This document shows, one piece after another, positions 18,415 through 64,000 of a stretch of 64,000 nucleotides of DNA. The stretch covers positions 1-64,000 of the forward strand of contig JAPLKI010000021.1 of the NCBI GenBank assembly GCA_026388155.1. The letters are read 5' to 3'. The translations under genes and the position numbers were made by a program. The DNA is from Elusimicrobiota bacterium. GTDB lineage: Bacteria; Elusimicrobiota; Elusimicrobia; Elusimicrobiales; UBA9959. The notes under the pieces are model-generated. The model saw only the letters and a program-made list of their open reading frames with translations, made no database searches and was not told where the DNA came from. Every line of letters begins with the position of its first letter. Position 1 is the stretch's first letter.

Positions 18415-18591
18415 TTCTACTGCCATACGCCTTAGGCCGTAAGCCATAGGAAGAAAGGTTGCCATAAGCCGTATGCTTTAGGCCATAAGCTATAAGGAAA
18501 CTCCTAAAAAGCATATGGCATACGGCGTAAAGCTTATGGCAGCCTTCCGGCTTATGGCCTATGGCAAGCGCGGCGCTCTTATGGCGTAGAA
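18415..18591. repeat. Large word-repeat hairpin between nifU and nifS
   Basis: About 177 nt made from permuted words gccataagc, gccgtatgc and ttaggcc. The right half is the imperfect reverse complement of the left half; both arms begin and end with ttctac/gtagaa. Arms of ~85 nt could pair with few interruptions. The same words recur at 30605-30700 (gccataagct, then taaggaa). It is not a simple terminator because it lacks a T-run. Confidence 0.8.
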
Positions 18592-18594
18592 GCG

Positions 18595-19428
18595 CTATTG
18601 CGCTTCGACTTCCAGCGTGGGATCTATTCTTTCCCTGAATTCTTTTTCAACCACGTTTTTCAGGGTGGCCGAAGAAGACGGACAGCCGACGCACATGCCG
18701 AGGAAGCGCAGCACAACCGTTTTGCCGCGCACATCCACCAGCTCTATCCAGCCGCCGTCGGCCTTAAGCTTCGGGTTTATATCCTCGGACAGGACTTTTT
18801 CAAGCATCTTGATCTTTTCCACCACGGTCATTTTTTCAAAGCTCTTGTGCTCGGCTTCGGCCCAGTAGTCTTTTAATATTTTTTCTATCTCGCCCACGCA
18901 CTGGCGGCAGCCGCCTCCGGCCTTGGTGAAATTGGTGACTTCCTCAACGGTATGCAGTTTGTTTTCTTTTATCGCCTTCAAAATTTTCGCCTCGGTGACG
19001 CTGAAACACTTGCATACAATGCGTTCGCCGGCGCCGATAATGACTTTTTCCTGTTTGCCGCCTTTGTAGCTCTTGATGGCGGCCTCAAGCGCTTCCATGC
19101 CCATTACGGAACAATGCATTTTTTCGCTTGGAAGTCCGCCGAGGAATTCGACTATATGCTGGTTGGTTATTTTTGAGGCGTCGGCAAGGGTTTTGCCCTT
19201 TATCATTTCGGTAAGGGCCGAGGACGAGGCGATGGCGCTGGCGCAGCCGAAAGTTTTAAATTTGGCGTCAAGTATCTTTTCGGTGCCTTTTTCCACTTTA
19301 AGGGTAAGTTTCAGGGCGTCGCCGCAGATGATGCTGCCCACCTCGCCCACGGCGTCGGGGTTCTCTATCTCGCCCACATTGCGGGGGTTTCTGAAGTATT
19401 CATAGACCTTTTCGGTATAATTCCACAT
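18595..19428 (-). CDS. nifU: Fe-S cluster scaffold protein NifU, three-domain form
   Basis: Assembles Fe-S clusters from sulfur delivered by NifS. All three classical NifU parts are present in 277 aa. The N-terminal IscU-like scaffold has cysteines C35 (IICGDA), C62 (FGCASAIASSS) and C106 (MHCSVMG). The central BFD-like [2Fe-2S] domain has C139, C141, C174 and C177 (VCKCFS, CRQC). The C-terminal Nfu domain has C246/C249 (MCVGCPSSS). It pairs with nifS downstream. There is no nif nitrogenase context, so a housekeeping role is likely. Confidence 0.94.
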   Translation of the reverse strand: MWNYTEKVYEYFRNPRNVGEIENPDAVGEVGSIICGDALKLTLKVEKGTEKILDAKFKTFGCASAIASSSALTEMIKGKTLADASKITNQHIVEFLGGLPSEKMHCSVMGMEALEAAIKSYKGGKQEKVIIGAGERIVCKCFSVTEAKILKAIKENKLHTVEEVTNFTKAGGGCRQCVGEIEKILKDYWAEAEHKSFEKMTVVEKIKMLEKVLSEDINPKLKADGGWIELVDVRGKTVVLRFLGMCVGCPSSSATLKNVVEKEFRERIDPTLEVEAQ

Positions 19429-19442
19429 ATTAGCCTTTAGGC

Positions 19443-19495
19443 TGCGGACTGAAGGCTTAAGATTTACAATAGAATTTCCCGAACTTCAGTCTTCC
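19443..19495. repeat. Small word-repeat hairpin upstream of nifU
   Basis: gcggactgaag (19443-19454) can pair with cttcagtcttccg (19483-19495) around an A+T-rich loop. Same style (actgaag words) as the larger hairpin between gyrB and gyrA. Confidence 0.45.
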
Positions 19496-19602
19496 GGCCC
19501 TTATAATTGATTTTATTAAATACTGAGGCCCCGTTCAATGAGCTTGAGCCGCGGGGAAGGCCGGGAATGGGAAACCGTTTTTCTTAATAATATTTGCACT
19601 TT

Positions 19603-20217
19603 TTAGCTTTTGAATTCGTTTCGCACGGCCTGGGTTTCAAATTTTCTGGCCAGCCAGAAAAACAGGGCCGTCCCGGCGCCGCAGAAACCCTGAAGCCATA
19701 ATTTTACGGTTTTAACCGCCGCGTTAAATTCAGGCGCGAGCGAGATCCCCTGATAGAAAAAAGGCTTCGGCACAACCAGTTCGGGGAACATGAAGAGTAT
19801 AAACAAAACCGCCGCGCCAAGGTAAAGCAGGACGTTAAACCCGTCGCGCCCCCATTGCCTGCGCCGCAAAACTCCGAATCCCAGCGCCGTAACGGAAAGC
19901 CACATTATCAGAGAAAAAAAGAAAAATCCGCGGGGATACCGCACAAGAAAAGCTGCCGCCGGCGGCATTTCCACCGGCACGGTGGCGTGCGCCATGGAAA
20001 GCTGGAAGGAGGGAGAGGAAAACATGGAAATAAGCGTAAAATTCGCCCTGGCAAATGATACACTGAGGAAGCCGCCTATTACGATGGCTGAGACAGCCGT
20101 AACAGTTACAAGACGGCTTCTTTTCCCGCCGGATCCGGTATCTACCGCGCGCGCCGCCTGCGCGGGAATTGTTTTTTCGGTCTTTTCGGTGTTTTCCGTA
20201 AATTTTATTGCCTCCAA
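19603..20217 (-). CDS. Membrane protein of unknown function, about four membrane segments
   Basis: I do not recognise this 204-aa protein. A polar N-terminal stretch rich in Glu, Lys and Thr (about 1-36) is followed by hydrophobic segments at about 37-55, 90-115, 125-148 and 170-190. Arg/Trp-rich loops (RRRQWGRDG) lie between the second and third segments. No motif or metal site is evident. It is alone on the minus strand between nifU and the convergent ACT-domain gene. Confidence 0.6.
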   Translation of the reverse strand: MEAIKFTENTEKTEKTIPAQAARAVDTGSGGKRSRLVTVTAVSAIVIGGFLSVSFARANFTLISMFSSPSFQLSMAHATVPVEMPPAAAFLVRYPRGFFFFSLIMWLSVTALGFGVLRRRQWGRDGFNVLLYLGAAVLFILFMFPELVVPKPFFYQGISLAPEFNAAVKTVKLWLQGFCGAGTALFFWLARKFETQAVRNEFKS

Positions 20218-20317
20218 CAGTGAAAATTTACTAAATTAGATTAAGGGCTTGCAATGCAGTAAGAAGATTGCGGGTTGTCTGCTGATCTTAAATCTTGAAG
20301 AGGAAGAACATAAATTT

Positions 20318-20728
20318 ATGCCCGTAAAAGCCGTCAAGCAATACACCGTGTTTCTGCCCAATATCCCCGGCGCTTTAAGCAAATTCGTGGAACTGTTCGC
20401 GAAGGAAGGGGTAAACGTAATCGGCATAGCTTCCGAAATACGCGATGATTCAGGCATTGTGCGCGTGGCCGTTGACGCGGACCGCAAGGTAAGCCATGTG
20501 CTTACAAATGCCGGTTTTACCACCATAGAAACTTCCATGCTCTCGCTGGAGCTGCCGGACAAGCCGGGCCAGCTTCTGCGCCTTACGAAGCTCCTTGGCG
20601 AAAACAACATAAACATTACCACTGTTTACGGCACCTCGGTCGGCGGGGTAAGCGCCCGGCTGCTGCTGAATGTTTCAGACGCCGACAAGGCGCTGGAAAT
20701 ACTGCAGGCTGAGCTGGATATAAAATAG
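20318..20728 (+). CDS. Tandem ACT-domain protein
   Basis: The 136-aa protein consists of two ACT domains (about 5-68 and 74-134) with the usual opening wording FLPNIPGALSKFVELFAKEGVN and ELPDKPGQLLRLTKLLGENNINI. Such stand-alone pairs bind amino acids and act as regulators or sensors; the ligand is not readable. The ATG at 20318 starts directly before the first beta strand; the longer frame from 20249 would add 23 residues that match nothing. It is the only plus-strand gene left of 33 kb and ends at a strong terminator, tail-to-tail with gyrA. Confidence 0.85.
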   Translation: MPVKAVKQYTVFLPNIPGALSKFVELFAKEGVNVIGIASEIRDDSGIVRVAVDADRKVSHVLTNAGFTTIETSMLSLELPDKPGQLLRLTKLLGENNINITTVYGTSVGGVSARLLLNVSDADKALEILQAELDIK

Positions 20729-20750
20729 CTTTCCAAGCGCAAGAAATGTA

Positions 20751-20781
20751 AAACCGTCCGCCTAAGGCGGACGGTTTTTTT
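20751..20781. terminator. Rho-independent terminator between the ACT gene and gyrA
   Basis: A perfect inverted repeat accgtccgcc/ggcggacggt around a short cta loop is followed by a run of T on the plus strand and preceded by AAA. It can end the ACT-gene transcript and, less strongly, transcripts arriving from gyrA. The core tccgcct-aggcgga is also seen inside the gene at 40448-40867. Confidence 0.9.
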
Positions 20782-20813
20782 GCTGATTCACACGCTGCAT
20801 TCTCAACTTCTGC

Positions 20814-23324
20814 CTACTTCTTCTCTTCGGCCGTGGATTCAACTTCTCCGTCGTCAATTACCGGCTCGACGGAGGCTATTTTATCCCCCTCTTCAAGCCG
20901 GACCAGGCGCACCCCCTGGGTGTTTCTGGAAATAGCGCGGATATCCTTGCAGGGCATGCGGATGATCTTGCCTTTTTCGGTCATCACCATCAGATGGTCG
21001 TCGTCTTCCACCAGGTAGATTCCAAGCCCGGCGCCGTTGCGGTCGTTGGCTTTAATGGTGATAACTCCGGAGCCGCCGCGGTGCTGGTTGCGGTACTCGT
21101 CAAGTTTGGTGCGCTTGCCGTAGCCGTTGGCGCACACCGTAAGAAGGGTTTTTTTGGTTTTAGGCTCGGCCACTTCCATGCCTACCACTATATCTTCCTT
21201 GTCAAGGCGTATGCCGCGCACGCCCATGGCGTTGCGCCCCATGGAACGCACATCCGACTCGTTGAAGCGGATGGACATGCCGCCCCTGGTGCCGATTATA
21301 ATTTCATACTTGCCGTCGGTGTAGCCCACGCTTGTAAGGATGTCGCCGTCTTCAAGACCTATGGCTATAATGCCCGAGCGGCGGATGTTCGCGAAGTCTT
21401 TTATGGGCGTCTTCTTTATATTGCCCTTGCGGGTGCACATCACGATATATCTTTCCCCGCCCTTTGCCTCTTCAAAAGACTCCACGGCGAGCACCGAGGT
21501 TACTTTCTCGTCTTTCACCTCAAGCAGGTTCACTATGGCCTTGCCGCGCGAGGTGCGGTTGCCCTCTGGTATTTCGTAGCCTTTGAGCGCGTAAACTTTT
21601 CCGCGCGTTGTGAACATCAGTATGGTGGCGTGGCTTGAGGTGACGAAGAGTTTCTCGATAAAATCCTCCTCTCTGACCTCGGAGCCGATAATGCCTTTGC
21701 CGCCGCGGCCCTGCACTTTGTAGGTGTCGGAAGGGATGCGCTTTATGTAGCCGCCGTGCGAGAGCGTGATAACGACTTTTTCCTCAGGGATGAGGTCCTC
21801 GATATCAAGCTCGGCCGCCTCGCCGGTTATGTCGGTTTTGCGCTTGTCGCCGTATTTTTCCTTGATCTCTTTAAGTTCGGCGATTATTATTTGCAGAACT
21901 TTCCGGGGGTCCGCGAGTATCGCGCGCAGTTCCCCGATAAGCTTCATAAGGGCCTTGTGCTCTTCCTCGATAGCTCCCACTTCAAGGCGGGTGAGCTGGT
22001 GCAGGCGCATATCAAGAATAGCCTGCGCCTGGATATCCGAGAGGGCGAACTGGCCCATCAATTTCTGTTTGGCGTCAAGGGCGTCTTTCGCCTTTTTTAT
22101 TATCGCCACCACGGCGTCGATGTTCTGCATGGCTATCAGGTAGCCTTCAAGTATATGGGCGCGGCGAAGAGCTTTGTTCAGGTCGTACTTGGTGCGGTTC
22201 ACCACCATAAGCTGGCGGTGCCTGATATAATGCCGTATTACTTCTTTCAGCGCAAGCACGCGGGGCCTGCCGTCAACGATGGCAAGCATTATGACCCCGA
22301 AGGACGTTTCCATCTGGGTGTGCTTGTAAAGCTGGTTTAATACCACCTGGGCGTTGCCGTCACGCTTCACCTCGACATATATGCGCATTCCGCGGCGGTC
22401 GGACTCGTCGCGGATATCCGAGATATCGGGGATCCGTTTTTCTTTTACCAGGTTGGCGATGGACTCTATAAGGTTCGCCTTGTTGACCTGGTAGGGGATC
22501 TCGGTTATTATGATGGCTTCCCTGTTGCCTTTCAGTTCCTCTATTTCGGCGCGGGCCTGGGTTTTTATGGAGCCGCGGCCTGTTTCAAAATAATCCTTTA
22601 TGCCCTTGCGGCCGCGGATAATTCCGCCCGTGGGAAAATCGGGCCCCTTGATTATTTTCATCAGCTCTTTGACTTCAATATCTGGGTTTTCTATCACCGC
22701 CATGGTGGCGTCGCAGACTTCGGAAAGATTATGAGTGGGAATATTGGTGGCCATGCCGACCGCTATGCCGGAAGAGCCGTTTATAAGCAGATTGGGGAGT
22801 TTCGCGGGCAATACGCTGGGCTCCGTCAGGGAGCCGTCGTAGTTGGGCGTGAATTTTACCGTTTCTTTTTCTATATCGGCGAGCAATTCTCCCGCAATAC
22901 CGGAAAGCCGGGCCTCGGTATAGCGCATGGCGGCCGCGGGGTCGCCGTCCACCGAGCCAAAATTTCCCTGCCCGTCCACCAGGGGATAGCGAAGCGAAAA
23001 ATCCTGCGCCATGCGGACCAGCGTGTCGTAAATGGCGGAGTCGCCGTGCGGGTGGTATTTTCCCATCACATCGCCCACTATGCGGGCCGACTTTTTAAAG
23101 GGCTTATTGTGCTGAAGGCCCATGTCTTCCATGGTATAAAGCACGCGGCGGTGGACGGGTTTTAACCCGTCGCGCACATCGGGAAGAGCGCGCCCTACGA
23201 TAACGCTCATGGAATACTCTATATAGGAGGATTTCATCTCCTCGCTTATATCGCGGTCTACAATATTCACAAAAAGGTTTTCAGGGTTCGCCGGCGTCTT
23301 GTCTTTATCCTTGTGTTCTGTCAT
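20814..23324 (-). CDS. gyrA: DNA gyrase subunit A
   Basis: Breakage-reunion subunit of gyrase, introducing negative supercoils. The catalytic tyrosine is Y135 in [11 protein letters not shown]. The quinolone region reads [19 protein letters not shown] and keeps the Ser and an acidic residue pattern of sensitive enzymes. The C-terminal beta-pinwheel contains the GyrA box QGRGGKG near 545, which separates gyrase from topoisomerase IV ParC. Length 836 aa. It follows gyrB after a 94-nt gap occupied by a word-repeat hairpin. Confidence 0.96.
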
Positions 23325-23342
23325 TTAAATGCTCCTTAAAGT

Positions 23343-23418
23343 AGAGCTGAAGATCTGAAGCGCTGAAGGCTTAAAAAAGCTCTTTACTTCAGAGCTTCAG
23401 GACTTCAGCGCTTCAGCT

Positions 23419-23420
<2 letters not shown>
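23343..23420. repeat. Word-repeat hairpin between gyrB and gyrA
   Basis: Left arm 23343-23371 and right arm 23393-23420 are built from the words ctgaag, gatctgaag, cgctgaag and their complements. One arm begins at the gyrB stop codon (23419-23421). Pairing needs a shift of one 8-nt word, as if the words had expanded or contracted. No T-run follows on the minus strand, so it is unlikely to be an ordinary terminator in this operon. Confidence 0.75.
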
Positions 23421-25923
<2,503 letters not shown>

Positions 25924-26229
25924 CTAAATTTCGTTGGCTGTTTTTATGCCTTTTATCCACGGTCTCCTGAAATATCTGTTAAGGCTTCTTACCAGCTGCC
26001 GGCTGCGCAGAAGCAATTCGTTTGACATCACGGAAGAATCCGCTTTTACCAGTACCCAGCCCCTGTTAACCCCTAAAAGCCGGCAATGCTGCGCCAGCCG
26101 GCCAATCTCTTTTTTCCAAACAGCGTCAAGAATAACCAGGCGATCCGGGTCTATGCCGCCAAGAAATTTCCAGGAGGATTTTATTTCAGATGCCCTGGTC
26201 CAATTGGAGCTTCTTCTGGTTAAAAACAT
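25924..26229 (-). CDS. DUF721 / DciA-like protein
   Basis: The 101-aa protein is in the position (between dnaN and gyrB) where DUF721 genes usually lie in bacteria with this origin layout. The sequence shows the family pattern: W-K-x-E-I-G-R-L-A-Q-H near residue 40 (VWKKEIGRLAQHC), GWVLVKADSSVMSNELLLRSRQL, and a C-terminal basic stretch with KGIKTANEI. Members related to DciA help load the DnaB replicative helicase. The call relies as much on synteny as on motifs. Confidence 0.7.
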   Translation of the reverse strand: MFLTRRSSNWTRASEIKSSWKFLGGIDPDRLVILDAVWKKEIGRLAQHCRLLGVNRGWVLVKADSSVMSNELLLRSRQLVRSLNRYFRRPWIKGIKTANEI

Positions 26230-26253
26230 ATAAAATTAAGGATTAAAACTCAT

Positions 26254-26330
26254 GAAGACATAATTCAGTAGTCAGAAGGAATATGGCAGGAAAAAAATTT
26301 TTAATATTCTGAATACTGACTTCTGTCTTC
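26254..26330. repeat. Word-repeat hairpin between dnaN and the DUF721 gene
   Basis: Left arm 26254-26284 (gaagacataattcagtagtc and onward) pairs with right arm 26304-26330 (atattctgaatactgactt and onward) over about 25 positions with a handful of mismatches. The loop is A+T-rich. A run of eight T follows on the plus strand, but the adjacent genes are transcribed from the minus strand, so the T-run is not downstream of either. Confidence 0.75.
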
Positions 26331-26336
26331 TTTTTT

Positions 26337-27455: not shown

Positions 27456-27479
27456 AATACTCCTCTATAAGAATGAAGC

Positions 27480-27527
27480 TGTGGATAGTGTTAGTTTTGT
27501 TAGTTATATTGACGCTTATTATCCACA
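27480..27527. promoter_or_regulatory. DnaA boxes between dnaA and dnaN
   Basis: A perfect TTATCCACA lies at 27519-27527 and a one-mismatch reverse copy (TGTGGATAG) at 27480-27488. They lie in the dnaN leader and could mediate DnaA control of dnaN, or form the second half of a bipartite origin together with the boxes at 28930-28949. Confidence 0.65.
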
Positions 27528-27569
27528 ATTTTTAAGTTTTTACTGATAGTCCCAACAAAAAACACCCCC

Positions 27570-30573: not shown

Positions 30574-30604
30574 GTCGGGTTCTCCCTTAAAATTCGTAAC
30601 TACC

Positions 30605-30700
30605 TTAAGCCGTATGCCATAAGCTGTAAGGAAGCCTTAATGGTTTATTATATATTCTGCCTATGGCTTAAGGCCTACGACCGATGGCGTTTTACAGCCT
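30605..30700. repeat. Word-repeat hairpin between pmbA and tldD
   Basis: ttaagccgtatgccataagc (from 30605) and later ctatggcttaaggc (30661-30674) plus gttttacagcct form imperfect complementary arms around an A+T-rich loop. Words gccgtatgc, gccataagct and taaggaa are shared with the hairpin at 18415-18591, including an 18-nt stretch with one difference, which shows that the two are copies of one element. Confidence 0.7.
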
Positions 30701-30718
30701 AAACAACCTGGGCAGTTA

Positions 30719-32995: not shown

Positions 32996-33120
32996 GGGAC
33001 ACCGCATGGGCGGTTTCCACCCTTTCCCAACGACTGAGGGGACACCGCATAGGCGGTTTCCCCTCCTGCGCAAGCCCCGCCCTTTTGGGCTCCAATGCAA
33101 ATCCAAAAGGGCGGGGCAAG
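32996..33120. repeat. G+C-rich palindromic repeat, copy 1
   Basis: The leader part contains gggacaccgcat-ggcggtttcc twice (32997-33018 and 33040-33061). Then comes tcctgcgcaag and a perfect 15-bp stem gccccgcccttttgg (33074-33088) / ccaaaagggcggggc (33103-33117) with a 14-nt loop. The same block is found in opposite orientation at 35231-35345, so the two copies bracket the nadD and LytR_C genes. No T-run follows the stem. Confidence 0.85.
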
Positions 33121-35223: not shown

Positions 35224-35230
35224 GCGGCTG

Positions 35231-35345
35231 ATCCGCCCCAATGCCTGCCCCGCTCTTTTGGGTTTGCATTGGAGCCCAAAAGGGCGGGGCCTGCGCAGGA
35301 GGGGAAACCGCAGTGCGGTGTCCCTTAAGTAGTTGGGAAAGGGTC
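35231..35345. repeat. G+C-rich palindromic repeat, copy 2 (inverted relative to copy 1)
   Basis: The hairpin gccccgctcttttggg (35247-35262) / cccaaaagggcggggc (35275-35290) has one G-T position. It is followed by ctgcgcaggaggggaaaccg, a gcggtgtccc segment and agttgggaaaggg. This is the reverse complement of copy 1 at 32996-33120, including the gggaaaggg end. It fills most of the gap before pilT. Confidence 0.85.
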
Positions 35346-39505: not shown

Positions 39506-39516
39506 GTTCTGAAAGG

Positions 39517-39543
39517 CTGAAGGGTTAGAGCTTAAGGCTTGTG
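39517..39543. repeat. Direct repeat, left copy (with 39924-39950)
   Basis: gaagggttagagcttaaggc at 39519-39538 is repeated exactly at 39926-39945. The flanks differ slightly (tgtgccct versus tgtgacct). The two copies bracket a ~390-nt segment with strong secondary structure. Words (ctgaag, cttaagg) are like those of the intergenic hairpins. Confidence 0.75.
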
Positions 39544-39590
39544 CCCTCCCGTCTTCCGCAACCCCTCCAAAAATGGAGATTTTATCGACG

Positions 39591-39650
39591 AGAGCCGCTT
39601 GTATTTTGTATGTCCCACGGTAAAAAACGGCACATTTTATAAGCGGCTCT
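39591..39650. repeat. 10-bp perfect stem-loop after argS
   Basis: agagccgctt (39591-39600) and aagcggctct (39641-39650) are exact complements separated by 40 nt, which themselves contain a small ccg/cgg pairing. Just upstream ctcca/tggag (39565-39578) followed by attttat could be a weak argS terminator. Confidence 0.55.
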
Positions 39651-39732
39651 GATACCGCCGGGTGGGCAAATACGCCGTATCATCAATAAGGGCGGGGTTA
39701 TCTATAAAAAAGCAAGGCCGCTACGGTAATCT

Positions 39733-39871
39733 GCGCGGGTGACGGGGAACTAGATAAGCAAAACGCTCCGGAGCCCGACGCTTGCATAGCGCGGAGGGCG
39801 AGGAAGCGAAGGGCGGGCACGGTGTGTCCCGACCCTGGTTTTGCGTTCCAGTTCCCTGGCAGGTCCCGCGC
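39733..39871. ncRNA. Candidate structured RNA in the argS / adenosyltransferase gap
   Basis: Nested complementary segments define one long irregular hairpin: gcgcggg 39733-39739 with cccgcgc 39865-39871; gggaact 39745-39751 with agttccc 39850-39856; gcaaaac 39758-39764 with gttttgc 39838-39844; gcccg 39773-39777 with cgggc 39814-39818; and cgct/agcg at 39779-39791 inside. No open frame fits the segment. A TATAAA lies at about 39703-39708. I do not recognise a known RNA family: no RNase P, tmRNA, SRP or cobalamin-riboswitch core wording is visible. Strand is undetermined. Confidence 0.4.
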
Positions 39872-39923
39872 CAGTATAGTACAGGCTGCTGTTTAAGGTT
39901 TCAGGTGTCCCATTGCGGAAGTC

Positions 39924-39950
39924 AGGAAGGGTTAGAGCTTAAGGCGTGTG
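39924..39950. repeat. Direct repeat, right copy (with 39517-39543)
   Basis: Second exact copy of the 20-nt word at 39519-39538. It is followed by gtgacctgagacctgtgtcc, a run of related words reaching almost to the stop codon of the adenosyltransferase gene. Confidence 0.75.
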
Positions 39951-39969
39951 ACCTGAGACCTGTGTCCTG

Positions 39970-41213: not shown

Positions 41214-41367
41214 GGAGAAATGCAAAGTTTAAAATGTAAAATGGCGGAAAAGATTGCGCGCCGGTTAAAACCAATCGTTAATTTTTCGGTTTAGGCCGGT
41301 TTTTCTGTCCGGTTTTCCTCTCAATTTTTCACTTTTCATTTTGCATTTTTCACTTTACACTTTGAGT
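41212..41367. repeat. Word-repeat hairpin between nfu and the PHP gene
   Basis: The left part (gaggagaaatgcaaag, tttaaaatgtaaaatgg) is complementary in words to the right part (cacttttcattttgca, then tttttcactttacacttt and gag). The middle repeats a ccggtt/aaccgg theme. Arms start at the nfu stop codon and end 6 nt before the ATG of the PHP gene. An alternative TTG start of the PHP gene falls inside the right arm. Confidence 0.65.
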
Positions 41368-42192: not shown

Positions 42193-42920
42193 AAATAATA
42201 GCTCATCGCGGGGCTTCAGGTTATGCCCCCGAGAACACGCTCGCGGCTTTTGAACTGGCGGTTAAAATGGGCGCCAGCTATTTTGAATTTGATGTGCACC
42301 GCACCAGAGACGGGATTCTGGTCGTTCACCACGATTTTGACTTAAAAAGAACGGCCGCGAAAGAGGTTAAAATAGCGGAGCTCTCATACGCCGAACTGAA
42401 AAAAATAAATGTGGCCGCGCATTTTGCCGCAAACCCGTCTTTCCAGAGGATCCCAAAGCTTGAGGAAGTGATGGAGATTATTGAACCTGCCGCGTGCTGG
42501 CTGAATTTTGAGATAAAGAACGATAATAATGTATACCCCGGCATCGAGGCGGAGCTGCTAGCTTTTTTGCGCTCAAGGCCCGGCCTTTTTGAAAAGGCGC
42601 TGGTTTCAAGCTTTGATTACGGCACGCTTAAACGCCTCCGGAAACTTTCCCCTGAACTGCGCCTCGGTTATTTGGGCAACAGCCTGAATACCGTCCCGCT
42701 GCTTCCGGCGCTGAAAAAAGCGAAAGCCGTGGGAGCGGTCAATTTCAACATGAGCAGCCGCCTGGCTTTCAAGCTGAATGTGGCGGCGCTGAAGAAAGCC
42801 GGTTTCGTCGTTTACGTTTATACCGTCAACGACAGGAAAACCGCCCTTAAAATGGAAAAAATCGGAGTGGACGGGATTTTCAGCAATTATCCGGATATAA
42901 TGGGGAAAGTTGGGAGTTGA
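42189..42920 (+). CDS. Glycerophosphodiester phosphodiesterase (GDPD)
   Basis: Hydrolyses glycerophosphodiesters to glycerol-3-phosphate and an alcohol. The 243-aa TIM barrel opens with the catalytic IAHRGASGYAPENTLAAFELAV and continues with EFDVHRTRDGILVVHHD, where the E-x-D and H are the metal and acid/base residues. VNFNMSSRL and VYTVNDRKTALKMEKIGVDGIFSNYPDIM complete the family pattern. No signal peptide, so cytoplasmic. Starts in the end of the PHP gene (ATGA). The stop codon lies inside the first words of a word-repeat hairpin. Confidence 0.92.
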   Translation: MKIIAHRGASGYAPENTLAAFELAVKMGASYFEFDVHRTRDGILVVHHDFDLKRTAAKEVKIAELSYAELKKINVAAHFAANPSFQRIPKLEEVMEIIEPAACWLNFEIKNDNNVYPGIEAELLAFLRSRPGLFEKALVSSFDYGTLKRLRKLSPELRLGYLGNSLNTVPLLPALKKAKAVGAVNFNMSSRLAFKLNVAALKKAGFVVYVYTVNDRKTALKMEKIGVDGIFSNYPDIMGKVGS

Positions 42921-43000
42921 GAGTTGTGAGTTTGGAGTTTAAAGATTTTAAACTCTTGAGCTCTTAACGCATAACTCCAGACTCAAAACTCTTAACTCTT
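42908..43000. repeat. Word-repeat hairpin between the GDPD gene and nadA
   Basis: Left arm gagttgagagttgtgagt (from 42915) and onward through ggagtttaaag; right arm aactcttgagctcttaac ... actcaaaactcttaactct. A 27-nt stretch of the left arm pairs with the right arm with four mismatches. All words are variants of gagtt. The arm includes the GDPD stop codon (42918-42920) and ends 3 nt before the nadA ATG, leaving nadA without a usual ribosome binding site. Confidence 0.75.
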
Positions 43001-43002
43001 TT

Positions 43003-52581: not shown

Positions 52582-52668
52582 CCCGAATTCCCCAGTTGGA
52601 ATTCGGGAGGTTACAGGTATCAGGTGTCAGGTTGCATTTTTCCCCTGTAGCCTGTTGCCTACCCGAAA
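52582..52668. repeat. Word-repeat segment with a perfect 10-bp hairpin
   Basis: cccgaattcc (52582-52591) and ggaattcggg (52598-52607) are exact complements with a 6-nt loop. Downstream, caggtatcaggtgtcaggt is partly complementary to cctgtagcctgttgcct, and acccgaa repeats the complement of the stem word. The unit resembles the other word-repeat hairpins. Confidence 0.6.
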
Positions 52669-55470: not shown

Positions 55471-55598
55471 ATCAGGTTTTTTATTGTACTATATTGTTAC
55501 CGGGCGGAATCCGGGCGCAGCCGCGGACCTGGTTCTCGGCGGTAAAAATCACACCGCGGCACCCTCACTTTCCCGAGACGGCCTGGCAAAGGCGACTT

Positions 55599-57695: not shown

Positions 57696-57701
57696 CAGCG
57701 G

Positions 57702-57790
57702 CAGGGGCAAGCGGATAGCGTATAGGGATTGGGGAAGGAACTCCTTCCCTGAACCCCTATACGCTCGCCCCTGGCCCCTATCCTTTCTGG
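57702..57790. repeat. Word-repeat hairpin between the two oxidoreductase genes
   Basis: Left arm caggggcaagcggatagcgt (from 57702) continuing atagggattggggaagg; right arm ccttccctgaacccctata continuing cgctcgcccctgg. Pairing over ~35 positions is nearly complete around a ctcc-type turn, with a small indel in the atagcg word. It fills the gap, leaving TCTGGAG as the ribosome binding site of the next gene. Confidence 0.8.
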
Positions 57791-57797
57791 AGATTAT

Positions 57798-58955
57798 ATG
57801 TCAGCTAAAAATTACGATGTGATTGTTATAGGCGCCGGTTCCGTGGGGGTGCCGCTTGCCATGGCTTTGGCCGGGCGCAAACTGAAAACGCTGGTTCTTG
57901 ACGCCATGCCTTCGGTGGGGCAGGGCCAGAACAAATGCGCCATAGGCGGCGTGCGCGCCACGCATTCCGACGGCGCCAAGATAAAGGCCTGCCTGCGCAG
58001 CATTAAAACTTTTTCCACCTGGAAAGAAAAGTACGGCGACGATATCGGCTGGATAAAAGGCGGCTACGCCTTCCCGGCTTATACGGAGGACGATGAGGCC
58101 GTGCTGAAGGAACTGCTTAAGGTGCAGCGCGGTTTCGGTCTGAATATCGATTGGCTGGGCGCGGATAAAATGCGCGCCCTGCTGCCCGGGATCGCCCGAA
58201 AGGATCTGCGCGGCGGCACCTACGCGCCCGACGACGGCTCGGCCTCCCCGCTGCTGTCCATAAACGCTTTTTACAGGCGGGCGCTGGCTTTGGGGTCCGA
58301 GTTCCGCTTCAGGGAGCCGGTGACCGGGATAATTTCAGAAAACGGCGCGGTAAAAGGGGTCATTACCGCTTTGGGCCGCTACCACGCGCCGTGGGTGGTA
58401 AACGCCGCCGGCGCGGATGCCGCGGAAGTGTCCGGCATGGCCGGAGTAAAAGTTCCGGTAAATCCCGACTGTCACGAGGCCGGCATAACCGAGCCGGTTG
58501 AAAGATTTTTCGAGCCGATGGTGGTGGATATCAGGCCGGGCGATAAGTCTCAGAATTACTATTTTTACCAGAACTCCGAGGGGCAGATAGTGTTCTGCCT
58601 TACCCCGCAGCCGCCCATTGTCGGGAAAAACCGCCGTTCCACCTCGGAATTTCTGCCTGAGGTCTCAAAACGCATGATAGCGCTTGTGCCGAGTCTGGCA
58701 AACATCAAGGTGCGGCGCACCTGGCGCGGCCTGTATCCCATGACGCCGGACGGGTTTCCCGTAGTTGATTTTCCGGCGGCGCTTAAGGGCTACGTGCTGG
58801 CGGTCGGCATGTGCGGGCAGGGTTTTATGCTGGGCCCGGGCCTCGGCGAAACCATCGCCGCCCACATTGCGGGAAAACCGTCCGCGGACGACAGGAAAAT
58901 ACTGGCCGGTTTCCGATTGGCGCGCAATTTCTCAGGCCAGGAAAAGCTAAAATAA
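57798..58955 (+). CDS. FAD-dependent amine/amino-acid dehydrogenase beta subunit (DAO family)
   Basis: The 385-aa protein has the Rossmann FAD motif VIVIGAGSVGVPLAMALAGRK at the start, KCAIGGVRATHSDG, WVVNAAGADAAEVSGMAG, and the C-terminal RTWRGLYPMTPDGFPVVD and GMCGQGFMLGPGLGE. These match the glycine/sarcosine oxidase, HcnC and proline dehydrogenase beta-subunit group. The neighbouring multi-cluster alpha-like subunit supplies further FAD and Fe-S centres. Substrate not determined: sarcosine, proline, opine or hydroxyproline would all fit. Confidence 0.85.
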   Translation: MSAKNYDVIVIGAGSVGVPLAMALAGRKLKTLVLDAMPSVGQGQNKCAIGGVRATHSDGAKIKACLRSIKTFSTWKEKYGDDIGWIKGGYAFPAYTEDDEAVLKELLKVQRGFGLNIDWLGADKMRALLPGIARKDLRGGTYAPDDGSASPLLSINAFYRRALALGSEFRFREPVTGIISENGAVKGVITALGRYHAPWVVNAAGADAAEVSGMAGVKVPVNPDCHEAGITEPVERFFEPMVVDIRPGDKSQNYYFYQNSEGQIVFCLTPQPPIVGKNRRSTSEFLPEVSKRMIALVPSLANIKVRRTWRGLYPMTPDGFPVVDFPAALKGYVLAVGMCGQGFMLGPGLGETIAAHIAGKPSADDRKILAGFRLARNFSGQEKLK

Positions 58956-59002
58956 ACGGAGATTAGGCTTGATGTTAAAATTTGCGGTTTGTAATTTGCT
59001 AT

Positions 59003-59028
59003 TTTATTATCTACCGGTAGGTAAAATT
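59003..59028. promoter_or_regulatory. Dyad-symmetric possible operator upstream of the TolC-like gene
   Basis: The sequence is centred on the palindrome taccggta (59012-59019), flanked by A+T-rich half-sites ttttatt-atc and gtaaaat. It lies ~40 nt before the first gene of an efflux operon, where TetR- or MarR-type operators are often found. No such regulator gene is in the window. Confidence 0.35.
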
Positions 59029-59066
59029 AAATGCAATAAAATCCGGGCCGGAGGCGTTATACCAGT

Positions 59067-60341
59067 ATGACCATAAAAAAAAGACCCCTTTTTTTAACGC
59101 TCGCGCTGCTGATGGCCGCGGCCGGTTACGCGGCCGCCCAGCAGACTCCCCGTGAACTTTCGTGGGACGACTGCGTTCGGGAGGCGCTGGCCAATAACCC
59201 TGGACTTAAAGCCAAACAACTGATCATAGACCAGTATAAATACCTTCTTCTTGCCGGCTATAATGTCTACCTGCCCAAGGTCAGCCTCTCGCATTCGTTG
59301 AGCCGCAGCGGGGGCGACAATACCAGCCCATCCACCAGGTGGGGGGTGTCCGCCTCTGCCTCGGAGCCCCTCTTTGACCTCTCGGCGATGTCTTCCATAA
59401 GGACTTCTAAAATTAACTATGAAAAGACCCTTTCCGACTACCGCAGCGAGTCGGCCTCGCTCCGGCAGAGCCTGTATTCGGCTTTCATGAACCTTCTGGT
59501 CGCGCAGGAGCAGATAAGCGTGGACAAAAAGATCCTCGGCATACGCGAGCAGAACGCAAAGCTTATTCAGCTGAAGTATGAGAGCGGCATGGAGTCGCGC
59601 GGGAACACGATGTACGCCGCCGCGCTCTACGAGCTTTCCAAAGCTAACGCGCAAAAGTCGGAGCGCGCCCTCAACATTTCCCGCCGCGAGCTGGTAAAGG
59701 ATATGGGCGTTTCCGCCGACCGCCCGGTAACCGCCAAAGGCGAATTGAAGGTGCCCGAATATGATTTAAAGGTTGAAAATGTCAAAGCGGCCATGGAAAA
59801 GATTCCACAGGTGATATCGCAGGAAAAAAGCATCGAGGGATATAAGGAAAGGCTCCTTTCCGCCCAGTACAGCCTGTTCCCCACCTTAAATGCCAGCCAG
59901 TCCGTAAGCTGGTCGGGTCCCAGCGAATTCCCCGGGAAACGCAGCTGGTCCCTGGGGCTGAACCTTAACCTTCCGCTGTTTTCAAGCGGCATTACCTATT
60001 ATCCCAACAGCACCAAAGCGGCCAGGCTGGCCCTGCAAAGCGCGGAGGAGTCGCTGAAAGACCTTAAAATCTCCCTTGAGAGCGATATAATAAGCGGCTA
60101 CGATGATTTCCTTAACACCCGCGACACCGCGGTCTCAAATGTGAACGTGCTTGCGGCGAACGAGGAGCGGTATAAGGAGTCCCAGATAAAATACATGGCC
60201 GGCCAGATAAGTTTTTTAGACCTGGAAAATGTAGAGCAGAGCATGGTGGACGCGCAGCAAAACCAGCTGCAGTATCTGAGGAACGCCAACGCCAGGAAAT
60301 CCGCCCTGGAAAATCTTCTGGGCGTAGGACTGGAAGACTAA
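59067..60341 (+). CDS. TolC-family outer-membrane efflux protein
   Basis: Outer-membrane channel of a tripartite exporter. A signal peptide (MTIKKRPLFLTLALLMAAAGYAAAQ) is followed by two homologous OEP repeats (about 30-215 and 235-420) rich in long amphipathic helices. Blocks such as REALANNPGLKAKQLIIDQYKYL, GVSASASEPLFDLSAMSSI and LNLNLPLFSSGITY mark the family. 424 aa is near the standard length. Followed at 68 nt by the membrane-fusion protein and then MacB, so it is the outer component of that system. Confidence 0.88.
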   Translation: MTIKKRPLFLTLALLMAAAGYAAAQQTPRELSWDDCVREALANNPGLKAKQLIIDQYKYLLLAGYNVYLPKVSLSHSLSRSGGDNTSPSTRWGVSASASEPLFDLSAMSSIRTSKINYEKTLSDYRSESASLRQSLYSAFMNLLVAQEQISVDKKILGIREQNAKLIQLKYESGMESRGNTMYAAALYELSKANAQKSERALNISRRELVKDMGVSADRPVTAKGELKVPEYDLKVENVKAAMEKIPQVISQEKSIEGYKERLLSAQYSLFPTLNASQSVSWSGPSEFPGKRSWSLGLNLNLPLFSSGITYYPNSTKAARLALQSAEESLKDLKISLESDIISGYDDFLNTRDTAVSNVNVLAANEERYKESQIKYMAGQISFLDLENVEQSMVDAQQNQLQYLRNANARKSALENLLGVGLED

Positions 60342-60409
60342 GAACTGCGCCACGCTGCGCAGTTCCGCCATGAGCCCGGGGCAATGGAGTTAACTAAACG
60401 GAGAAAAAT

Positions 60410-61387
60410 ATGAAGAAAATTTTGATAATAGCGGCGGTGCTCGCCCTTGCCGGCGGAGGCTGGTATTACTTCAAGAACGGGAAAAAGACCGGCGAAATAA
60501 AATATGCGAAAGCCGAAGCTTTCTTAAAAGACATCTCGGAATTTGTGGAGACCACGGGCGAAGTGATCCCGATGAACCGCGTGGAGGTACAGCCCCCCTC
60601 TAGCGGCAGGATAGAACAGATAGTGGTGGATGAAGGCGACAAAATAAAGGCCGGGGAAGTAATGGCCCTGATGAGTTCCACCGACCGCGTGGCGATACTG
60701 GACGCGGCCCGGGCCATGGGTGACGATCAGTTCAAAAACTGGAAAGAGTCCTATAAGCCGATAAAGATAATTTCCCCGCTGGACGGCACGATAATATTGA
60801 AAGACGTGGTTGAAGGTCAGACCGTCGGCCAGTCCACCGTACTTTTCGCCATCTCGGACAACCTGATACTGAACGCCAATGTGGACGAAGCGGATATAGG
60901 AAAAGTGCGCGAAGGCCAGTCCGCCTCGATAGTTCTGGACGCCTACCCGAACAATCCGGTCAACGGCAAAGTGTTCCAGATACTGGACGAAGGCAAAAAC
61001 CAGAGCAATGTCATCACCTACAAGGTCAAGATACGCCCCGGCCAGGTACCCCCTTTCTTTAAATCGCAGATGACCGCCAATATAAAGATAGAGGTGGCTA
61101 AAAAGAGGAACGCCCTGCTTATCCCTTCGGCGGCGATTACCGTGGATCCCTCAGGCAGCACCGCGGTGATAACGGAAGTAACGGATAAAAAACCGATATA
61201 TACGAAAATAGAGACCGGCCTGGACCAGGGTGATATGGTGGAAGTGACCAAAGGCCTCGAAGAAGGCGACACCGTGATGTTCGCGGGCAAAAATTACAGG
61301 CCGCAGCAGGCCGCAGACAGCGGGAGCAACCCGCTGATGCCCAAACGGCCGAACATGCCAAGGGGCGCCGCCCGGGCGATGCGCTAG
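60410..61387 (+). CDS. Periplasmic membrane-fusion protein (MacA/HlyD type) with a very short hairpin
   Basis: Links the inner-membrane pump to the TolC-like channel. An N-terminal membrane anchor (ILIIAAVLALAGGGWYYF) precedes a lipoyl domain whose two halves are RVEVQPPSSGRIEQIVVDEGDKIKAGEV and IISPLDGTIILKDVVEGQTVG. Only ~30 residues separate them, so the usual alpha-helical hairpin of MacA is almost absent. A beta-barrel domain (SASIVLDAYPNNPVNGKVFQIL) and membrane-proximal domain (YTKIETGLDQGDMVEVTKGLEEGD) follow, then a Pro/Arg/Asn-rich tail. 325 aa. Confidence 0.87.
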   Translation: MKKILIIAAVLALAGGGWYYFKNGKKTGEIKYAKAEAFLKDISEFVETTGEVIPMNRVEVQPPSSGRIEQIVVDEGDKIKAGEVMALMSSTDRVAILDAARAMGDDQFKNWKESYKPIKIISPLDGTIILKDVVEGQTVGQSTVLFAISDNLILNANVDEADIGKVREGQSASIVLDAYPNNPVNGKVFQILDEGKNQSNVITYKVKIRPGQVPPFFKSQMTANIKIEVAKKRNALLIPSAAITVDPSGSTAVITEVTDKKPIYTKIETGLDQGDMVEVTKGLEEGDTVMFAGKNYRPQQAADSGSNPLMPKRPNMPRGAARAMR

Positions 61388-61431
61388 ACCTGCGCTGTGA
61401 GGCTCAGTCGAATCGCAATGGATTTGATTTT

Positions 61432-63381
61432 ATGATCGAACTCAAAGGAATAAGAAAAGTATACCAGATGGGCGGAGAAGACCTTGAGGTTCTCAAGGGC
61501 GTGGACCTCTCCGTGAAAGAAGGCGAGTTCGTGGCCATCATGGGCCCTTCCGGCTCCGGCAAATCCACACTGATGCATATCCTGGGTCTCCTTGACAGAC
61601 CGAGCAAGGGCTCTTACAAGCTTTTCGGCCGTGAGATATCGGCACTGGACGACCTGGAGCTGTCGTATTTAAGAGCCCGCATACTGGGGTTCGTTTTCCA
61701 GCAGTTCAATCTGCTACCCAGGATAACGGCGGCCGACAACGTGGCCCTGCCGCAGATATACCTCGGTGAAAAGGCCCGCCCTGCCGCCGCCGGAAAATTT
61801 CTCAGCCAGGTGGGCCTCGCCGACAGGTCCGGCCACAAACCGAACCAGCTCTCCGGCGGCCAGCAGCAGCGCGTGGCCATAGCCCGTTCGCTGGTCAATA
61901 ATCCGAAGATAATTTTCGCCGACGAGCCCACCGGCAACCTCGCCTCCGACCAGTCCAACGAGATAATGGGCATTTTCAAAAAACTGAACGATCAGGGCAT
62001 AACGGTGGTTATCGTCACGCACGAGCCCGATATCGCCGCCTGGGCGAAGCGCGTCATCAAACTCAGGGACGGGCACATCGTCGAAGATTCAGCCAAGCCG
62101 GAACCGGGCGCGACAAGCCGTGAAGCGGCACATCTGAAGATCCCGAAATCCTTTTTCCTCAGCTGGCGCGAAGTCGTGGAAAACATGGCTTCGTCCATAA
62201 ATTCGATAGTCGGGAACAAGACCCGCTCGCTTCTGACCATGCTGGGTATCATTATAGGCGTGGGAGCGCTTATAGCCATGCTGGCAGTGGGCACCGGAGC
62301 GCAGAGGGCCATACAAAAACAGATGTCCTCGCTTGGCACTAACCTCCTGGCCGTGATGCCAGGCAACCGGTCCCAGGGCGGGATGTCGCTCGGCAGGGGC
62401 GCGGTAAGCCGTCTTACAAAGGATGATGCCGAGGCGATAAAACGCTATGTGCCCAACATAACAAGGGTGGACTGTAATGTCCAGGGCAATGTTCAGGTGG
62501 TCTATGCCGCGAAAAATTACAGGACTTCTGTGACAGGGGCGACCCAGAGCTACGCCCTTATGCACAACGCGGCTCCTTATTATGGAAGATTCTTCTCGGA
62601 AAGCGAGGAGAAGGAGCTTAAAAAAGTCGCGCTGATCGGGCAGACGGTGGTGGATCAGCTTTTTGGCAAAGAAGACCCGGTAGGGAAAACCATCAAGATC
62701 AACAGAAAAAATTTCACGGTTATCGGCGTTCTCCCTTTGAAAGGGGCGGCCGGCCCGCGGGACCAGGATGACACTGTTATTGTGCCGCTCAACACGGCGA
62801 TGCGCATACTGCTGGGGAAGGACTTCGTGGACAACATCTGGGTGGAGGTCGCGGATTACACCCTTATGCCGGACGCGCAGGCCAGAATAATACAGCTTAT
62901 CCGAAAGCGACAGGGCGTGCCGGATTACAAAGACGACCCGGTCTCCATAATGAATATGGCTGACATGCAGGCCATGCTGACCAGCACCATCAAGACCTTC
63001 AGCACGCTTTTAGGCATCATAGCCGGCATCTCGCTCATAGTGGGCGGCATAGGCATCATGAATATAATGCTGGTCAGCGTCAGCGAGCGTACAAAAGAGA
63101 TAGGCCTCCGGAAGGCTATCGGCGCCACCCGCCGGGCGGTCCTCCTCCAGTTCCTGATAGAGGCTGTCATCCTGTCGGTAATAGGCGGGCTTTTAGGCAT
63201 ATTGGTCGGGGCGAGTTCCTCCCTGTTGCTTTCCAGAATTTCCGGCTGGGCGATATATATTTCTCCTTTATCCGTGGCCCTGGCGTTCGGCTTTTCCGCC
63301 ACCGTGGGTGTCGTTTTCGGCTTTTGGCCGGCCAAAAAGGCCTCGCTCCTTTCGCCCATAGACGCGCTCCGCTACGAATAA
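61432..63381 (+). CDS. macB: MacB-type ABC exporter (ATPase fused to FtsX-like permease)
   Basis: Mechanotransmission ABC pump for macrolide, peptide or lipoprotein-like export. ATPase domain at 1-225: Walker [10 protein letters not shown] (38-46), Q-loop FQQFNLL, signature [15 protein letters not shown], Walker [12 protein letters not shown], switch His in VIVTHEPD. Then a first membrane segment (~265-290), a large periplasmic MacB_PCD domain (about 295-500), and three C-terminal segments ([62 protein letters not shown]). 649 aa, complete. With the two preceding genes it makes a full tripartite exporter. Confidence 0.92.
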
Positions 63382-63513
63382 TCCCCCCACTTGTCCGCCT
63401 TGGGCTGAGCGGGTGGCAGAATAATTTGATATTATGTAGAACTCAGGCACTGGCAGGTTAGCAGGCTTAAAGCATACCCGCACCGGCCTGAAGCATTGTT
63501 TTTGGAGGCTAGA

Positions 63514-63915
63514 ATGATAAGCATTTCCGTTAAATGTCCGCGTTGCGGCAAAACATTGGTGAGCGCCACCAAGAAACTGGACAAAGTTCCGGCCCTTGAG
63601 GTGAACCTGACCTATGCGGGTAAACACGCCCCCCTGTATCTCAGTTCGCTCTACGGCAGCTACATGGTTGAGACCGAGCTTAATGTGCCGCTCGGAAAAG
63701 TAGCCGGTTTCCGCTGCCCCCACTGCAAGGCGGACCTGAAAATACTCAGGAAATGCGAGGCCTGCGGTGCGCAGATGGTGGCTTTTAACCTTAAAGAAGG
63801 CGGCCAGGTGCAGTTTTGTTCAAAACGCGGCTGTAAAAAACACCTTCTTGAATTCCAGAACCCGGATAACGAATTGCAGGCTTTCTATAAGTCTTATCTG
63901 AAAGCGATGAAATAA
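63514..63915 (+). CDS. Small zinc-ribbon protein of unknown function
   Basis: The 133-aa protein carries paired cysteines C8/C11 (VKCPRCGKTL), C68/C71 (FRCPHCKADL), C81/C84 (RKCEACGAQM) and C102/C107 with H110 (FCSKRGCKKH). This arrangement could make two or three zinc ribbons. Between the first and second pair lies a beta-rich stretch (LYLSSLYGSYMVETELNVPLG). A perfect GGAGG lies 5 nt before the ATG at 63514, deciding the start. No family was recognised. A word-repeat hairpin follows the stop. Confidence 0.7.
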   Translation: MISISVKCPRCGKTLVSATKKLDKVPALEVNLTYAGKHAPLYLSSLYGSYMVETELNVPLGKVAGFRCPHCKADLKILRKCEACGAQMVAFNLKEGGQVQFCSKRGCKKHLLEFQNPDNELQAFYKSYLKAMK

Positions 63916-63920
63916 GTTGA

Positions 63921-64000
63921 TAGTGTAGAGTGGAGAGTGTAGAGAATTAAATTGAAATTTAAGATTTAAGTTCTACGCTCTCCACTCTCACTTTTTAGTG
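63921..64000. repeat. Word-repeat hairpin at the right window edge
   Basis: tagtgtagagtggagagtgt (63921-63940) with agagaa pairs with ttctacgctctccactctca (63971-63990) over more than 20 positions, around an A+T-rich loop (attaaattgaaatttaagat). The arm may continue beyond the window. Confidence 0.75.

Follow-up and report, generated by a model that had tools for sequence, protein, structure and literature searches.

The window analysed here is bases 1–64,000 of contig 21 of an Elusimicrobia genome (G000; 3.36 Mb in 25 contigs). The gaps between its protein genes contain hairpins in which a short word is repeated with variations on one arm and complemented on the other. One such pair of arms encloses a gene for an S23 protein (23S rRNA-intervening-sequence protein, PF05635), and hairpins that by definition lack the S23 ORF are referred to as solo hairpins. 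Judging from sequence comparison, the hairpins are probably a family of mobile elements of the intervening-sequence (IVS) type, and those in the window would be its S23-less solo members. Genes were called with a greedy ORF caller without curated annotation, and Rfam and tRNA scans gave no Rfam match and no tRNA in the window. Two congeners, G001 and G002, were compared (NifU identity 97% and 94%); in the named collection, NifS has its closest homologues in 13 records with 77–81% identity (L037–L049), nearly all from Elusimicrobia metagenome-assembled genomes (MAGs).

Word hairpins in the window and across the genome

The gap sample comprised 864 kb of G000 with 480 gaps of at least 35 nt. Each gap received two mismatch-tolerant scores, zD for self-match at a lag of 6–9 and zI for inverted self-match, relative to 300 dinucleotide shuffles. 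The shuffle control proposed in the preliminary description gave a clear answer: both scores exceeded 2 in 101 of 480 real gaps and in none of 480 shuffled gaps (shuffles vary by run, and either 101 or 107 gaps pass), and the looser criterion zD + zI > 4 selected 167 real gaps and one shuffled gap. Extrapolated from the sampled density, the whole genome would hold roughly 400 such hairpins. The tolerant detector superseded one based on exact 5-mers, which was positive in 45 of the 480 gaps and in no shuffled gap; since the words are degenerate, only three of the eleven segments named in the preliminary description reached p ≤ 0.01 on both of its scores.

Those eleven segments had been described as repeat-word hairpins of a single architecture, and most of them are (Table 1). 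Seven, starting at 18,415, 23,343, 26,254, 30,605, 42,908, 57,702 and 63,921, have zD and zI of at least 4. The segments at 52,582 and 41,212 are periodic with weaker inversion, that at 19,443 is weak, and 39,517–39,950 is a weakly scoring composite gap. RNA folding of ten segments (39,517 excepted) gave z values from −1.9 (30,605) to −10.1 (63,921).

The spacing of intergenic 6-mer pairs peaks at 7 (410 vs 14 in shuffled sequence), 14 (330 vs 31) and 21 nt (222 vs 18), with a second series at 8 (148 vs 17) and 16 nt (109 vs 16). Of the 155 elements that the sum criterion defines, 121 have 7 as their best period, 29 have 8 and 5 have 9. The words had been thought specific to their loci, which proved incorrect: a given word turns up again at many unrelated loci. 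The pattern GCCATAAGCCnTAnG, with at most one mismatch, occurs 226 + 194 times, as against 8 + 8 for the reversed control. Seventeen word patterns and one tip pattern were written after inspection of the data; 14 of the 17 form at least one hairpin in the G000 sample and 11 form two or more (patterns N, O and Q form none, and L, M and P one each). The claim that no common consensus exists is correct in that there are many word classes, but a tip palindrome like AAGGAGTTCCTT (pattern AAGGArTTCCTT) is present in 34 of the 155 elements, the majority of them GCCATAA and AGGGGTT/AGCGGAT hairpins, compared with 1–5 of 155 shuffled elements and 5 of 229 gaps without an element. Within a class, polarity is nearly fixed. 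The order word..complement was found 54 times and the reverse six times for the GCCATAAG class, and 65 times versus once for all other classes; the 5′ arm is purine-rich in 41 of 52 solo hairpins.

Hairpins are scarce in divergent gaps (3 of 63, compared with 89 of 381 other gaps). This depletion and the strength of the hairpins would be expected of ordinary transcription terminators or mRNA 3′-end stabilisers whose sequence drifts freely, and in gaps 57 and 64 word arms do surround, by eye, a terminator-like stem. However, 79 of the 92 typed occupied gaps lie between co-directional genes, the NifU–NifS pair among them, and such a function leaves unexplained the 7-nt periodicity, the common words, the S23 genes in the loop and the co-inheritance of word and S23 presented below, making it very improbable as the whole explanation.

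Dispersed palindromes in gaps might also be repeats like repetitive extragenic palindromes and bacterial interspersed mosaic elements (REP/BIME) or miniature inverted-repeat transposable elements (MITEs), moved by a REP-associated tyrosine transposase (RAYT, Y1) or another known transposase. Y1_Tnp matches are present, with four in G000, six in each congener and some in 24 of 41 relatives. We nevertheless give this possibility very little credence: many words without a single consensus face only a handful of RAYTs, many of the 15 RAYT genes scored (of 21; L253–L258 not included) are flanked by other inverted repeats of the AAAGGTAGCGTCTACCTTT, AAAGGTGCCTGGCACCTTT and GGTGACACACAACTTAA types, and no flank periodicity z exceeds 2.2 (highest at L248, 2.2/4.9). 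None of the 15 loci adjoins a clear word array, and RAYT as the mover is not supported. Several RAYT-type Y1 transposases (L239–L251) have inverted repeats of their own, perhaps a small REP-like system.

Table 1. Hairpins and the S23 element of the window.
Feature	Coordinates	Strand	Scores or basis
S23 / 23S_rRNA_IVP (PF05635) gene, 129 aa, between two complementary word arms	11021..11410	-	Pfam E 4.4e-35; arms by eye
Left arm of S23 element, 8-mer word GTCTnAGn (GGGTCTGAGGGTCGCAGGGTCTGAGAGTC...)	10986..11027		read by eye
Right arm of S23 element, same word complemented (GCTTAGACTCTCAGACTCCCCGACTC)	11456..11490		read by eye
Solo hairpin, word GCCnTAn (7), NifU–NifS gap; core tip AAGGAAACTCCT at 18494–18505	18421..18565		zD 10.5, zI 14.5; fold −86.3 kcal/mol, z −8.3
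Short weak hairpin, CTGAAGGC-type word	19447..19494		zD 1.9, zI 1.7; fold z −2.85
Solo hairpin, word CTGAAGnn (8)	23347..23416		zD 8.4, zI 7.1
Solo hairpin, word AGTCAGAA/CAGAAnT (7)	26264..26330		zD 4.3, zI 5.4
GCCnTAn hairpin (30605–30688) within outer flank GTAACTACC ... TACAGCCTAAACAACCTGGGCAGTTA	30595..30718		zD 5.2, zI 4.0
Composite gap, no clean word hairpin: CTGAAGG/TTAAGGC words at 39509–39543 and 39930–39969 around another dispersed repeat (39744–39856)	39509..39969		zD 2.7, zI 2.2
A/T-rich nested hairpin, AAAATGTA-type word	41218..41348		zD 6.1, zI 1.5; fold z −3.5
Solo hairpin, word GAGTTnn (7)	42909..42998		zD 9.3, zI 7.2
Hairpin, word CAGGTnT (7), adjoining separate hairpin CCCGAATTCC	52610..52668		zD 6.0, zI 2.1; both together fold z −6.9
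Solo hairpin, word AGGGGTT/AGCGGAT (7), core tip AAGGAACTCCTT at 57735–57746	57703..57783		zD 5.2, zI 5.7; fold z −6.6
Solo hairpin, word GAGTGTA (7)	63921..63991		zD 8.5, zI 6.3; fold z −10.1

Two further repeats of the window are of other kinds. The dispersed repeat of the composite gap, about 110 nt long (GGGGAACTAGATAAGCAAAACGCTCC...GGTTTTGCGTTCCAGTTCCC), is MITE- or REP-like and not built of words; by eye, similar sequence is present at C25:336537–336825 and in the NifU–NifS gaps of L038, L040 and L045. Hairpins of the form GCCCCGCCCTTTTGG...CCAAAAGGGCGGGGC at 33074–33117 and 35224–35290 have a G+C-rich stem that recurs in the genome, and its 10-mer AAAGGGCGGG was counted 25 times in the sampled gaps.

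S23 genes between word arms

G000 has six S23 matches over the cut-off (L031–L036), one of them in the window. Five of the six genes lie by eye inside word hairpins, that of L035 doubtfully so, and the five words are GTGTAGA, TAGAACT, GCCATAA, GTCTnAGn (the window copy) and AGGGGTT (the doubtful one). Arms were scored by exact 6-mers within 200 nt, the upstream flank being compared with the complemented downstream flank; an earlier score (7-mers, one mismatch, 330 nt) was dropped because of its high background. By this count the arms of L031–L033 are clear and L036 has none, whereas the arm match of the window element is weak (16 vs a mismatched mean of 9.9; p_shuffle 0.035, p_mismatch 0.16).

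Across 57 S23 loci in 27 genomes, made up of the best-scoring ones and 20 stretches chosen from a list rather than drawn at random, the median arm match is 30, as opposed to 8 for mismatched pairs (Mann–Whitney p 3e-24), and the arms are individually significant at 38 loci (22 of 34 in Elusimicrobia and 16 of 23 elsewhere). Split arms, defined by at least 20 inverted matches and at least three times as many inverted as direct matches, flank 24 of the 57 genes but only 1 of 322 G000 genes of up to 900 nt. In G001 and G002, all 12 scorable S23 copies have arm matches 1.9–7.7 times the shuffled mean (a comparison without p-values), with differing words; one copy cut by the stretch end and one broken copy were left unscored. 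Of 56 settings with co-directional neighbours, 51 have the S23 gene in sense orientation to the operon; six further settings are convergent, four divergent and ten untypable.

The same architecture surrounds S23 genes in Elusimicrobia, Desulfobacterota and cyanobacteria, and one copy within 23S rRNA. Of the 29 plasmid records with a match in PLSDB (25 listed), 12 were read, and 10 of these loci are significant at p = 0.005. Heptamer-like arms occur at the S23 loci of Nostoc, Anabaena, Calothrix and Trichormus plasmids. The loci of Nostoc sp. ATCC 53789 and Geminocystis have low-complexity arms that are plain by eye and fail the count, the arms of Pseudanabaena are mainly direct rather than inverted (310 vs 69), and Gemmatirosa has both. 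In Anabaena sp. 90 and Pseudanabaena galeata, cas6 and cas4 flank the S23 gene; in Nostoc edaphicum it separates nrdB from nrdA (ribonucleotide reductase) and is on the opposite strand to those genes. Two Nostoc plasmids carry S23 in different gaps of one apparent operon, recognised by one shared protein accession and equal gene lengths, and the alternative gap measures at most 3 nt. The S23 gene of Azospirillum lipoferum 4B lies inside the large-subunit (LSU) rRNA, the Rfam match spanning S23, between arms of GGACGGA/TGACAGA words. A very homogeneous element with AGGGATG words on both sides is present in G010 (L273, approximately 1408–1865); its S23 frame meets no stop in the 3′ arm and runs on into the next gene, which encodes a repeat protein (PQQ-like by eye), and the arm would thus be translated.

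The word follows the S23 lineage. In a set of 51 de-duplicated loci with significant arms, from which pairs with common flanking genes were left out, S23 pairs at least 60% identical have a mean arm-word overlap of 0.31, compared with a permuted mean of 0.016 (maximum 0.11; p = 0.0005). An overlap of at least 0.3 is reached by 9 of 23 such pairs and by 6 of 1118 less similar pairs. One S23 lineage with CAGAA words is represented in two Nostocales plasmids, a Desulfobacterales MAG and an elusimicrobial genome. Solo hairpins share words with these copies as well: for 9 of the 17 solo patterns an S23-bearing copy has the same word and polarity, with 20 matches against one reversed. In G004, an identical stretch of 30 nt occurs in an S23 element arm and in a solo hairpin approximately 1 kb apart, within one xdh operon (named from reading the flanking protein text), and in five genomes the two gaps of this operon are variously empty or filled with S23, a solo hairpin or a one-armed stretch. 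Outside the phylum, where one locus of 13–21 kb per genome was compared, all around NifS homologues, word hairpins occupy 11 of 130 gaps, in 7 of 10 S23-positive genomes, and none of 143 gaps in 14 S23-negative genomes. The connection with the S23-family protein, offered in the preliminary description as a mere possibility, is strongly supported by the arms around S23 genes and by the covariation of word and lineage.

The Avd protein of diversity-generating retroelements belongs to the S23 fold. Relatives of such retroelements could in principle copy the arms with a reverse transcriptase, and the sense orientation of S23 would suit an RNA step. The sole RVT_1 match of G000 lies 1.4 kb from its weakest S23 match, L036 (C17:45666–48012), a locus that is probably a diversity-generating retroelement with Avd. 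Yet this Avd-like copy is not in word arms, and G002 (97% complete) has eight S23 matches without any RVT_1 match, although its hairpins are the densest of the three congeners sampled (60 of 181 gaps). With one reverse transcriptase near L036 only and none in G002, this enzyme is not supported as a needed partner, and a retroelement origin of the arms appears highly unlikely.

Same site, different word

The comparison of syntenic gaps called for in the preliminary description revealed both of the outcomes it had predicted, i.e., hairpins of other words at the same site and empty gaps with intact flanks, and supports the view that the architecture is kept while the word changes. In the NifU–NifS gap, G000 has the GCCATAAG word, G001 a decayed copy and G002 an GTAGGCTA hairpin; in more distant relatives the gap is nearly bare or holds other palindromes. 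The 30.6 kb gap holds a GCCATAAG hairpin in G000 and an AGGCTGT hairpin in G002 within a common outer flank, and the 42.9 kb gap holds GAGTT in G000, AGCGAAT in G001 (one arm seen) and GTAGATGC in G002. The hairpins at 23347..23416 and 57703..57783 have the same word in G001 and a different word in G002 (CAGTGG at the latter site). That at 26264..26330 is matched by an almost empty gap in G001 and by a GGTTCA word in G002, and that at 63921..63991 by an AAGTGATT word in G001, with none seen in G002. Since exact GCCATAAG matches number 90 in G000, 2 in G001 and 86 in G002, turnover is fast.

Among 45 doubly occupied orthologous pairs, from which gaps 39, 44 and 95 had first been excluded as coding or composite, 32 have no repeated 6-mer in common. 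Word overlap of at least 25% is found in 9 of the 45 pairs versus 41 of 662 mismatched gap pairs, and there is some inheritance of words at orthologous gaps. Occupancy itself is correlated: in counts that include the three gaps, 17 of 32 gaps occupied in G000 are occupied in G001, compared with 7 of 46 empty ones, and for G002 the corresponding counts are 20 of 25 and 14 of 36 (p 0.002). In gaps 57 and 64 (C22:113079–113207 and C22:128025–128142), the position of the terminator-like stem is common to the congeners and the word arms around it differ; the arms look as if they had been added around a pre-existing hairpin. Near the 23347..23416 site, the G001 orthologue of the gene at 23419–25875 carries an insert of approximately 1.3 kb opposite window position 24552, which we would guess to be an intein.

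These observations bear on an explanation by local array dynamics alone, according to which hairpins arise and are homogenised at each gap through heptamer slippage and template switching between arms, selection for transcript ends, stability or insulation keeps the structure, and S23 genes are passengers that land there. The arms are indeed degenerate arrays with unit-level drift, occupancy is correlated as described, and heptamer slippage has been proposed before (PMC4679880, PMC4692102). The arms of the orthologous xdh S23 element also shift: they are GTGTAGA in G000, combine outer GTGTAGA with inner GAGTCTA units in G002, and are TAAAGTC/GAGTCTA in G004. Local dynamics do not account, however, for the same words turning up in other species as well as at scores of unrelated loci, for the near-fixed polarity within classes, for words that track the S23 lineage across phyla or for the unrelated words in most doubly occupied orthologous gaps, and we consider them unlikely to suffice. 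The preliminary description had named local word expansion with hairpin templating as an example of a generating process; that it alone gives rise to the hairpins is not supported, given the polarity, the shared words and the cross-phylum co-inheritance of word and S23.

Proposed mechanism and relation to known systems

Copying of elements is favoured because of the near-fixed polarity, the words common to unrelated loci and the co-inheritance of word and S23 across phyla, and local turnover, i.e., array slippage and homogenisation of both arms, probably acts on top of it. A complete element would consist of an array of a 7–9 nt word, the S23 gene and the complementary array, inserted between operon genes, usually in sense orientation; in solo hairpins, the same kind of arms would be closed by a short tip, AAGGAGTTCCTT in some classes. 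Since word and protein co-vary, the S23 protein may bind the word that flanks its own gene, as RNA or DNA, and thereby mark the arms for copying. The hairpin would be copied with or without the gene, solo hairpins in trans. By analogy with rRNA IVSs, RNase III, whose gene is present in the genome, might cut the hairpin out of the transcript or trim the transcript, which would make insertion into operon gaps tolerated. Finally, the arrays would drift by slippage and exchange between arms, so that the arms stay alike while the word changes, which would explain the mixed GTGTAGA/GAGTCTA/TAAAGTC arms of the orthologous xdh S23 element. An RNA step, or selection for removal from the transcript, would be in keeping with the sense bias and with the preference for co-directional gaps.

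Several points weigh against copying of S23 elements as the source of the hairpins. No transposition was observed, and no target-site duplication or excision product was seen, no search aimed at these having been made. Significant arms are absent from 19 of the 57 S23 loci; in G000, the window copy (L034) scores marginally and L035 falls short of significance. At L275, L289, L291, L304, L314 and L346 there are at least as many direct as inverted matches, with L348 close, and the control genes for the split-arm comparison all come from one genome. Under the strict pattern, 8 of the 17 solo patterns, including CTGAAGnn and GGCTGAAG, have no S23-bearing copy among 76 loci. Words change at orthologous S23 sites too, and the link between S23 and word thus decays. 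Outside the phylum, a looser score gives 19 versus 2, and several consensus words in S23-positive loci there are not clean arrays. Within Elusimicrobia the association is blurred: G013, without S23, has hairpins in 1 of 12 gaps, and G010, with one S23, in 6 of 47. Solo hairpins could also be hosts into which S23 genes home rather than descendants of S23 elements, and structural selection could keep hairpins at given gaps.

On a wider scale, we tentatively propose that S23 proteins are word-specific nucleic-acid-binding proteins that define an unrecognised cross-phylum class of mobile elements, the arms being the recognition sequence of the enclosed S23. In that case, which we hold to be possible rather than probable, rRNA IVSs would be one niche of the class, the heptamer repeats of cyanobacteria and Xanthomonas as well as the window hairpins would be non-autonomous copies, and RNA structure or transcription would guide insertion into operon gaps and existing hairpins. 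Many genomes have S23 or "four helix bundle" proteins annotated with no role assigned to them, no agreed account has been given of the heptamer repeats of cyanobacteria and Xanthomonas, and the mechanism by which rRNA IVS elements spread is unsettled (PMC4990558). One architecture would join all three and make each testable, the handle being a protein, a predicted 7–8 nt recognition word from its own flanks and ready non-cognate controls. The chance that the architecture defines a class of its own is substantial, and it offers a natural system in which sequence is swapped and structure retained.

The repeat class had been presented as undescribed, which applies to the whole and not to its parts: heptamer arrays in cyanobacteria and Xanthomonas and S23-bearing 23S rRNA hairpins are already published. 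The two are known separately, and joining them appears to be the new part; no paper linking S23 genes with heptamer arms outside rRNA was found in the open-licence literature, supplements not included, which does not establish its absence from print.

The closest known system is the 23S rRNA IVS of Leptospira, Coxiella and others, in which terminal inverted repeats on either side of an S23 ORF form a hairpin; these IVSs are sporadic, thought to be horizontally transferred and excised by RNase III (PMC4990558). The elements described here likewise have a PF05635 ORF enclosed by inverted repeats, and the Azospirillum copy in LSU rRNA itself has word-built arms. Unlike rRNA IVSs, they lie in gaps between protein genes (that copy excepted), their arms are tandem 7–9 nt words that vary from one S23 lineage to another, and they are accompanied by many hairpins that lack S23.

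The Nostoc tRNA-Leu intron carries a heptanucleotide hairpin. Cyanobacterial short tandemly repeated repetitive (STRR) heptanucleotides form 7-nt arrays in gaps, some of which fold into hairpins (PMC2670836). Tandem 7-nt units in intergenic DNA are common to both systems, the prevailing period here being 7. STRR sequences are described as repeats without a gene (PMC2670836), whereas the arrays here appear as the arms of S23 elements; we infer that STRR repeats and S23-element arms in cyanobacteria are the same repeats.

A solved S23 homologue bears the PDB label XCC0516, presumably from X. campestris. In Xanthomonas, GGGAATC heptamer arrays lie in gaps between mostly aligned genes, with 70 convergent (inverted) array pairs in Xcc and 75 in Xac (PMC4692102). 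The likeness consists in heptamer arrays in gaps, some as inverted pairs; in contrast to the many words here, that system has one word, read as a G-quadruplex former (same paper), and the main text of PMC4692102 contains no match to S23. The TAACTGA direct repeats of Beggiatoaceae are multicopy heptamers mostly in gaps (PMC4679880), and the heptanucleotide elements of Geobacter metallireducens are multicopy and mostly intergenic, one class being drawn as strand-switching loops (PMC2700814). Unlike the elements here, both consist for the most part of a single word in direct repetition and have been interpreted as regulatory sites.

The remaining comparisons concern mobile elements. In diversity-generating retroelements a reverse transcriptase is the partner gene to look for, and here it adjoins an S23-fold gene only at L036. 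REP/BIME and MITEs have a defined consensus and termini. The hairpins described here resemble both in being dispersed intergenic palindromes and differ from REP/BIME in their many word classes, with a tip common only to part of them. They differ from REP/RAYT systems in that the RAYT genes here have other repeats.

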